Shown here piece by piece: positions 8,571 through 26,540 of a stretch of 52,607 nucleotides of DNA. The notes beneath the pieces were generated by a model. It did not search any database. It was not told where the DNA came from and saw nothing but the letters and a program-made list of their open reading frames with translations. Both the position numbers and the translations under genes were made by a program. Source of the DNA: Candidatus Berkelbacteria bacterium. GTDB lineage: Bacteria; Patescibacteriota; UBA1384; XYA2-FULL-43-10; CAINNR01. The stretch's first letter is position 1. Each line of letters opens with the position of its first letter. The DNA lies in the NCBI GenBank assembly GCA_026397235.1, contig JAPLVG010000027.1:1-52607 (forward strand). Direction: 5' to 3'.

Positions 8571-8610
8571 ACTCGACTGATTATCAACGATCGACGATAA
8601 TCAGTCGAGT
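8571..8610. terminator. 14-bp perfect hairpin between mfd and the opposing zinc-ribbon operon
   Basis: Arms ACTCGACTGATTAT (8571-8584) and ATAATCAGTCGAGT (8597-8610) are perfectly complementary around a 12-nt loop that contains CGATCG. There is no T-tract on +, so it is either a weak terminator for mfd or a protein-binding palindrome. Confidence 0.5.
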
Positions 8611-21962: not shown

Positions 21963-22000
21963 CTCAACACTTCTGTAACGATCGCAACAAAAGTGTTGAG
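21963..22000. promoter_or_regulatory. 38-bp palindromic operator, copy 1
   Basis: Arms CTCAACACTT and AAGTGTTGAG flank TGTAACGATCGCAACA. The right arm overlaps the -35 box of the regulator gene at 22031. It is identical to copy 2 (22574-22611) but for one base. There is no T-tract, so a protein-binding site is more likely than a terminator. Confidence 0.75.
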
Positions 22001-22024
22001 AAAATATTCATCACATATTATAAT
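21996..22024 (+). promoter_or_regulatory. Leaderless promoter of the PaaX/Cas2-like regulator
   Basis: TTGAGA (21996-22001), 17-nt spacer, TATAAT (22019-22024). The ATG at 22031 is 6 nt beyond the -10 box, so transcription should start at or next to the start codon. Confidence 0.8.
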
Positions 22025-22030
22025 TATGGT

Positions 22031-22570
22031 ATGAGAAAGAAGAATCGTGAAAAAATTATCAACTTAACCACTGAGATATTAGAAGCTTTTTTGAGAGTTG
22101 GTGGCGCAGGGGCTCATGCTTTTCTCGATCAAAAAACGCTATACAGTGACTTAAATTCAAGAGGATACGATCGAGAAATAATATCAACCTATGTCAGGAG
22201 ATTGGTAAATTCTGGTCATCTTGAGGCAATTGAAGAGTCTGGCAAAAGGAGTGTCAGATTAACAAGAAAAGGTAAGGTCAAGCGACTTGAGAAGACAAAT
22301 GAAAGCTCAGCTGACGGCAAATGGCGGGTTATCTCATACGATATTCCGGATGATCGCAAGCCTCTTAGAATCGCGCTGACTCGTTCGCTTCGACGAATTG
22401 GGTACAAGCCGGTTCAGAAAAGTTTGTGGGTTTGTCCGTTTAATAAAGCAGATGAAATTGAAATTTTAATTTCCGAGCTTGGGATAAATATTTTTGTAGC
22501 TAATTTTAAGGTTGAGAGTAGTGACATCGAAGAGCATTTAAGAGAGCTATTCGATGATGAACTTGATTGA
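22031..22570 (+). CDS. PaaX-like regulator with C-terminal Cas2-like domain
   Basis: 179 aa. The N-terminal part reads as a winged helix (FLDQKTLYSDLNSRGYDREIISTYVRRLVNSGHLEAIEESGKRSVRLTRKG, about 36-85). The C-terminal part (GKWRVISYDIPDDRKPLRIALTRSLRRIGYKPVQKSLWVCPF, about 96-140) has the ferredoxin-like Cas2/PaaX central-domain signature. PaaX-type proteins are transcription factors. No CRISPR array or other cas gene lies in the window, so a regulator is far more likely than adaptation nuclease Cas2. The gene sits between two copies of a 38-bp palindrome, one over its own promoter and one just after its stop, ahead of prfB. Autoregulation plus control of prfB is my inference. Confidence 0.8.
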   Translation: MRKKNREKIINLTTEILEAFLRVGGAGAHAFLDQKTLYSDLNSRGYDREIISTYVRRLVNSGHLEAIEESGKRSVRLTRKGKVKRLEKTNESSADGKWRVISYDIPDDRKPLRIALTRSLRRIGYKPVQKSLWVCPFNKADEIEILISELGINIFVANFKVESSDIEEHLRELFDDELD

Positions 22571-22573
22571 AAA

Positions 22574-22611
22574 CTCAACACTTCTGTAACGATCGCTACA
22601 AAAGTGTTGAG
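22574..22611. promoter_or_regulatory. 38-bp palindromic operator, copy 2, upstream of prfB
   Basis: Same sequence as copy 1 apart from CGCTACA for CGCAACA, which makes the TGTA..CGATCG..TACA core more symmetric. It starts 4 nt after the regulator stop and is centred about 60 bp before the prfB ATG. Confidence 0.75.
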
Positions 22612-22638
22612 TATGAGGATGAAATTTCTTTTGCTACG

Positions 22639-22647
22639 TGGTAATAT
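22639..22647 (+). promoter_or_regulatory. Extended -10 promoter of prfB
   Basis: TGGTAATAT: TG then TAATAT (22642-22647), with no -35 match at 17 nt. The ATG is 6 nt further, so the mRNA is leaderless. Lack of a -35 box next to an upstream palindrome would fit activation. Confidence 0.55.
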
Positions 22648-22653
22648 AAAACC

Positions 22654-23661
22654 ATGGATATCAAGCAAAAACTTGAGGAGCTCAAGGCCGTTTTGAAAAT
22701 CGAAGACAAAGAAACCAGAATCGCTGAAATTGAGGAAGAGATGCAAGCGGAGGGTTTTTGGAATAAGCAAGAAACTGCTAACGAGCGAACGCAGGAATTG
22801 AAAAATTTGAAAACTGATGTGGATAAAATCAAAGAACTAGAAGAGTTGTCTGAAATGGCCGAAGGAGACGATGTTGCAGCCATTGAGGATGAGATTAAAA
22901 AATTAGAAGTATATACTTATTTTTCTGGTCGCTATGATGATCATTCGGCGATTATCAACTTCTATGCCGGTGCTGGTGGTGATGATGCGCAGGACTGGAC
23001 AGAAATGTTAATGCGGATGTACTTAAAATGGGCAGAGAATAATAACTACACAGTTAAAATTTTATCCGAATCTCGCGGCGGAATTGCTGGAATTAAATCA
23101 GCCACGTTGGAAATCGCTGGCTCATTTGCTTATGGAAAATTAAAGAAAGAGTCTGGTGTTCACCGTTTAGTCCGACTATCGCCGTTTAACGCCAAGGATT
23201 TGCGCCAAACATCCTTTTCTTTAGTTGAAGTTATGCCAAAAATCGAAAAAGAATCTGAACTTATTATCCCAGAATCTGATATTCGGATTGATGTTTACAG
23301 AGCTGGCGGCCATGGAGGGCAATCGGTAAATACTACAGATTCCGCTGTCCGAATAACGCATATACCAACGGGAATTGTTGCTCAGTCGCAAAATGAAAGA
23401 TCGCAGCTCCAGAACAAGCAAAATGCCATGAGTGTTATGCGAGCGCGGCTGGCAAAACTTTTGGAAGATCAGCACAAAGAAAAAATTGAAGAAATTCGCG
23501 GTGCTTCAGCCGAACCGGAGTGGGGAAGTCAAATTCGCTCGTACGTTTTGCATCCGTATAAATTGGTCAAAGATCACCGAACAGATTTTGAATCAAAAAA
23601 TCCCGATGCGGTTTTAGCTGGAAACTTGGATGGTTTTATTGAATCGGAAATCAGGTCATAA
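22654..23661 (+). CDS. prfB: Peptide chain release factor 2
   Basis: Reads UGA and UAA stop codons and releases the peptide. It is 335 aa. The GGQ motif is at 221-223 (AGGHGGQSVNTTDSAVRITHIPTGI) and the stop-codon motif SPF is in VRLSPFNAKDLRQTSF. The N-terminal domain is somewhat short. There is no internal frameshift site: the gene is in one frame from the ATG, unlike E. coli prfB, so it lacks the usual autoregulatory +1 shift. That makes transcriptional control through the palindrome upstream more plausible. Its presence supports UGA as a stop in this genome. Confidence 0.96.
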   Translation: MDIKQKLEELKAVLKIEDKETRIAEIEEEMQAEGFWNKQETANERTQELKNLKTDVDKIKELEELSEMAEGDDVAAIEDEIKKLEVYTYFSGRYDDHSAIINFYAGAGGDDAQDWTEMLMRMYLKWAENNNYTVKILSESRGGIAGIKSATLEIAGSFAYGKLKKESGVHRLVRLSPFNAKDLRQTSFSLVEVMPKIEKESELIIPESDIRIDVYRAGGHGGQSVNTTDSAVRITHIPTGIVAQSQNERSQLQNKQNAMSVMRARLAKLLEDQHKEKIEEIRGASAEPEWGSQIRSYVLHPYKLVKDHRTDFESKNPDAVLAGNLDGFIESEIRS

Positions 23662-26403: not shown

Positions 26404-26540
26404 CACGCAGTGTCATCCTGAGCGAGTGAAACGAGTCGAATGGATCTCTGTCTCGTCATCCTCGGACTTGATCCGGGGATCCACAAATAGTTGGTAGATT
26501 CCCGCCGGAGTTTACCCTGTGGGCGGGAATGACAAAATAA
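26404..26540. repeat. REP-like palindromic repeats after rplA
   Basis: GTCATCCTGAGCGAGTGAAAC, GTCATCCTCGGACTTGATCCGGG and a CCCGCCGGAG...GGGCGGGAATGAC unit. The first is close to the insertion inside ileS at 2519-2553. Confidence 0.75.

Follow-up and report, generated by a model that had tools for sequence, protein, structure and literature searches.

In the genome of a Candidatus Berkelbacteria bacterium, the gene of an HTH-Cas2 protein, in which a winged helix precedes a Cas2-like domain, is bounded by two near-identical palindromes, and gene and palindromes together form one self-contained unit of a large Patescibacteria family that is dispersing around chromosomes. We think it probable that this unit is a REPtron-like, self-repressing, palindrome-bounded element run by the HTH-Cas2 protein. 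The window analysed here comprises 52,607 nucleotides of contig JAPLVG010000027.1 from the genome designated G000; G001 is a genome of the same genus.

In the window, the palindromes lie at 21963..22000 and 22574..22611 (no strand assigned), the upstream copy with a CGATCG core and the arms CTCAACACTT/AAAGTGTTGAG, and they bracket the HTH-Cas2 gene (22031..22570, + strand; 179 aa). As the first-pass annotation had described, the two 38-bp copies differ by one base (37/38 identical); both are near-perfect and loop-less, pairing at 16/19 and 18/20 positions and centred on CGATCG. A search of the 925-kb genome at ≤3 mismatches, which that annotation had proposed as a check, returned the two window copies and no third site. 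The leaderless promoter it had predicted can likewise be read from the sequence (21996..22024, + strand), with TTGAGA at 21996-22001, a 17-bp spacer, TATAAT at 22019-22024 and the ATG at 22031, the -35 box reaching into the arm of the upstream palindrome as claimed.

The same arrangement recurs across the phylum. Members of PF20803, the Pfam family of the window protein, are present in 120/380 of its genomes, and we surveyed 112 distinct genes from many Patescibacteria families at loci collected by similarity to the window protein or its Pfam family, counting the short class where the flank sufficed and taking control ORFs from the same loci. A palindrome pair of its own was found at 68 of 91 short-class HTH-Cas2 genes, compared with 0/140 control ORFs (p = 6e-39), so the window pair is not due to chance; in the longer PaaX-like class, a pair was found in 1/13. 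The cassette palindromes are loop-less and 36-44 bp long, with CGATCG as the core in 69/144, followed by CGGCCG, CGTACG and TACGTA. A -10-like box adjoins the upstream palindrome in 46/72 cassettes; for sequence past the downstream one, the figure is 25/72. The next downstream gene is randomly oriented (36 vs 31 among 67 loci, p = 0.63). Together, the survey pairs, the random orientation of neighbours and the asymmetry of the -10 box indicate that the palindrome pair belongs to the HTH-Cas2 gene. The first-pass annotation had held that a lack of the palindrome near orthologues would count against it; the homologues instead bear palindrome pairs of their own, different from that of the window. 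No description of a palindrome-bounded HTH-Cas2 unit was found in the open-access literature, the only literature that could be searched.

The number of cassettes varies from 12 to 1 within one genus. The HTH-Cas2 gene is present in 12 copies in G000 (window copy included), 9 in G003, one in G001 and none in G002. Both palindromes were found at 10 of the 12 copies in G000, the downstream palindrome being degenerate at C4:65584 and one copy being cut by a contig end, and in nearly every case the palindrome pair has a sequence of its own. Two G000 copies, C5:2592 and C3:1-124, share 90% identity as far as the outer edge of the downstream palindrome, past which they are unrelated. In G003, two cassettes whose proteins are 79% identical have unrelated flanks, and a ATTCAGAT-armed cassette is present in both G000 and G003, each time at a different site. 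Copies within a genome have mostly diverged (40-75% identity), so movement is infrequent.

At four comparable intergenic sites of G000, G003 carries a cassette at each, with no clear orthologue and with the opposite orientation at 2/4, and the same sites are cassette-free in G001. Since the G003 cassettes there are not clear orthologues and are partly reversed, the four sites are taken to be preferred locations, which may be safe gaps where genes end, filled either by repeated insertion or by replacement; simple orthology of these cassettes was dropped as an explanation, as the subfamily differs and often the orientation too. No consistent target-site duplication was found at cassette ends. 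Presence and absence are themselves clear, with no clean base-exact empty site found, the flanks in G001, G318 and G325 being rearranged or diverged. At one locus of G249 (L209:1150-1810), a cassette separates rnhB from a tRNA gene; in the relatives G318 and G325, a terminator stands at this place and the tRNA is reversed. Carriage as virus cargo was rejected, no relatives being found among viral contigs, and so was carriage as plasmid cargo, since plasmids carry only distant PaaX-type regulators.

Cassette-type palindromes also occur on their own. Nine without a cassette were found in 414 kb of G000, including ACTCGACTGATTATCAACGATCGACGATAATCAGTCGAGT in the window (8571..8610, no strand assigned), at the 3' end of its upstream gene. 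This solo palindrome is 40 bp long, with a CGATCG core, lies directly before a terminator and is not present at the orthologous position of G001, G002 or G003. CGATCG sites fall within cassette-type palindromes in 24/98 cases in G000, compared with 2/88 in G001 with its single cassette. For several G000 solos, 33-35 of 38 bases agree with a resident cassette, asymmetric positions included, and the G003 solos (411 kb examined) match that genome's own cassettes, two of them exactly (36/36). As even asymmetric bases are common to one cassette, these cognate solos were copied rather than evolved in place. Convergent 3' ends are over-represented among the solos (12/28, compared with 30/202; p = 0.001).

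Other repeats were noted in these genomes. Six palindromes, TCCCTCACTTTGATACGCTAGCGTATCAAAGTGAGGGA, that show paired changes are scattered across G003 (L295:10804, L302:14020, L304:10222, L304:15017, L071:2845 and L294:7912), and no cassette with their core was found in G003. At L293:3854 and 3900 of the same genome, two palindromes of the TACGTA family lie 46 bp apart between convergent genes, resembling a REPIN/BIME doublet, or a cassette minus its gene. Runs of TAG/CTA triplets lie beside cassettes or solos at L076:6740-7120, L119:14845-15235 and L295:10600, and in two cases small ORFs starting like M(S/G)EKIG come next.

The first-pass annotation had proposed that the protein represses itself and controls prfB, the gene for release factor 2 just outside the unit (22654..23661, + strand), in place of the usual frameshift autoregulation. 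Self-repression is plausible, and the extended -10 element TGGTAATAT that it placed ahead of prfB is present in the sequence. Control of prfB is not supported by synteny or by the orientation of neighbours: G001 and, from the same order, G004, G005 and G007 have prfB without a cassette, mostly directly after the same kind of surface-protein gene, so that the order of regulator and prfB, which was to be checked for conservation, is not kept even within the genus. An uninterrupted prfB frame, as in the window, is normal, being found in 10/10 genomes with a match; the missing frameshift is therefore independent of the cassette, and its replacement by the cassette is not supported. The downstream palindrome is a regular part of the unit and not a prfB operator, a role rejected on synteny and the random orientation of downstream neighbours, and the position of the cassette next to prfB looks like an insertion accident. 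A further dispersed repeat of ~80 bp, at 26455-26535 of the window, is 91% identical to the sequence upstream of prfB in G001.

The domain layout given in the first-pass annotation, an N-terminal winged helix and a C-terminal Cas2-like domain, was borne out by a match to PaaX_M, PF20803 (E 2.6e-16; 59.9 bits vs a gathering score of 24), a model that matches 92/92 members of the HTH-Cas2 family at E ≤ 0.001. The winged helix spans residues ~30-77 and the Cas2-type ferredoxin fold ~93-165, with the metal-site aspartate of Cas2 at D104 and Q129/S131 following. The PaaX equivalog TIGR02277 (279 positions) scored 37.8 bits against a cut-off of 264.55, over positions 27-162 only. Cas2 models scored below cut-off on the window protein (PF09827, 16.9 vs 23.8; TIGR01573, 21.4 vs 24.5), though a Cas2 model matches 85/92 family members at E ≤ 0.01. 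Weak matches to Stomatin were set aside as chance. In the AlphaFold2 model (pLDDT 92), the closest solved structure is E. coli PaaX (8a39), and Cas2 structures fit the C-terminal domain. D104 and S131 are invariant in 92/92 family sequences, and D104 aligns with the aspartate of the Cas2 nuclease 3exc, which E. coli PaaX lacks. Because the Cas2 aspartate is invariant here, aligned with that of a nuclease and lost in the repressor PaaX, the Cas2-like domain likely has a catalytic role. Same-site orthologues have dN/dS values of 0.045-0.1, dS being near saturation in two wider pairs, and this strong purifying selection on in-situ orthologues disfavours a purely decaying transposon.

Judging from sequence comparison, the HTH-Cas2 protein and its palindrome appear to be matched. 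In 70 cassettes compared by Mantel permutations that ignore phylogeny, how alike two palindrome cores are tracks the similarity of the Cas2-like domain (r = 0.20, 0/1000 permutations), and the correlation is the same after controlling for the winged helix (partial Mantel). By a shift-tolerant measure and the same kind of permutation, outer-arm similarity tracks the winged helix (partial r = 0.15, 0/300 permutations), and its correlation with the Cas2-like domain given the winged helix is -0.01; the unshifted arm measure correlates with the Cas2-like domain too (partial 0.11). Within one G003 family, diverging palindromes keep self-complementarity in 152 of 162 pairs, against 121 in shuffles (0/5000). 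Palindrome mismatches are about equally G-T (77) and A-C (83), and this balance suggests that the palindrome acts at the level of DNA and not RNA. RNA hairpins were accordingly discarded, the upstream palindrome also lying upstream of the transcription start.

We propose that a dimer of the protein probably binds each palindrome, in which the winged helices would read the variable outer arms and the Cas2-like dimer would sit on the conserved CGATCG-type core. Binding at the upstream copy would repress the unit's own promoter. With both ends paired, the Cas2-like domain, the putative catalyst of movement, may cut at or near the cores, and pairing and cutting would move or copy the unit and seed solo palindromes elsewhere. 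Such movement would resemble that of a REPtron, carried out by an unrelated enzyme.

An ordinary PaaX-like autorepressor, whose palindromes are operators looping the 610-bp gene, whose solos are a small regulon and whose copies arose by passive duplication, seems to us unlikely, although PaaX is the nearest solved structure, the upstream palindrome overlaps the promoter, 4/9 G000 solos lie upstream of promoter-like sequences and the gene is under purifying selection. Like PaaX (PF20803/TIGR02277; 8a39), the HTH-Cas2 protein has a winged helix followed by a Cas2-like domain and is a probable autorepressor; unlike PaaX, it is shorter (179 aa), lacks the PaaX C-terminal domain, retains the Cas2 aspartate, has no paa genes nearby and typically has paired palindromes at its ends. 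Against it stand the invariance of an aspartate that PaaX has lost, the lack of a third site in the genome for the window cassette and the random orientation of downstream neighbours. Moreover, the solos prefer convergent 3' ends without a promoter, and the cognate ones carry the asymmetric bases of one cassette, as expected of copies rather than of sites that evolved.

The known settings of Cas2 are CRISPR adaptation and VapD-like toxins; its cellular ancestry is a matter of debate. The HTH-Cas2 protein shares with these nucleases the ferredoxin fold and, with Cas2, a signature of D, R, G and Q-x-S, and differs from them in its fusion to a winged helix and its two own flanking palindromes. 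A component of CRISPR adaptation was rejected, the five genomes checked, G000 among them, having yielded no Cas1. It is improbable that the protein is a stand-alone Cas2/VapD-type nuclease for stress or defence, silenced by binding its own flanking palindromes: the Cas2-type active-site residues are kept, Cas2 is homologous to the toxin VapD (PMC3150331) and the genes are patchy, multi-copy and intact, but the cassette has no antitoxin-like partner, and the downstream palindrome and dispersed solos are left unexplained. That the palindromes are REPs moved by the genome's own HUH (Y1) transposase, with the HTH-Cas2 genes as passengers, is very improbable and already largely contradicted, for although G000, G001 and G003 have one Y1_Tnp gene each and the solos act like REPs, the G000 Y1 gene has looped hairpins of its own (AACCAAAGTACACCTCGTAGGTGTACTTTGGTT) whereas the CGATCG palindromes are loop-less, both arms and cores of the palindromes follow the HTH-Cas2 protein, and G001 has a Y1 gene yet almost no such palindromes. 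The Y1_Tnp gene of G000 (C22:5735, L310), whose looped hairpins are AACCAAAGTACACCTCGTAGGTGTACTTTGGTT and AAAGTACACCTGCGAGGTGTACTTT, is a conventional RAYT-like locus.

As for the REPtron-like element that we favour, its likeness to the REPtron/RAYT system is close: one palindrome-bordered gene, cognate solos scattered in extragenic, often 3', positions, and a gene under purifying selection (PMC8266576). A palindrome-bordered gene with cognate palindromes elsewhere, which is one mark of a REPtron, was found for the family, the window copy itself having no third site. Domesticated REP transposases behave more like housekeeping genes and are under purifying selection (PMC8266576), as the in-place HTH-Cas2 orthologues are. 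The two systems differ in that the REPtron enzyme is HUH/Y1, the palindromes here are loop-less, 36-44 bp long and of CGATCG-type core, the solos are few, and the HTH-Cas2 gene is dispersing in multiple copies, unlike tnpA_REP, which is usually present once and for which there is no evidence of mobility. The window protein gave no match to PF01797 (HUH/Y1), the genome's Y1 gene lying elsewhere; since its enzyme is not HUH/Y1, the HTH-Cas2 unit is not a member of the REPtrons.

More tentatively, and at not quite an even chance, we suggest that these units are a new class of Patescibacteria mobile element. Its enzyme would be a Cas2-type nuclease, joined to a winged helix and working without Cas1, that recognises the palindromes at the ends of the gene encoding it and cuts them, spreading unit and solos, with a palindrome code for each subfamily. 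If true, this would add a second context for action of the Cas2 fold on palindromic repeats, in genomes without Cas1, and the many cognate pairs of the family would provide a natural code of specificity between protein and DNA. It also calls for caution, as Patescibacteria genes that carry the annotation "PaaX regulator" or "Cas2" might not regulate their neighbours.
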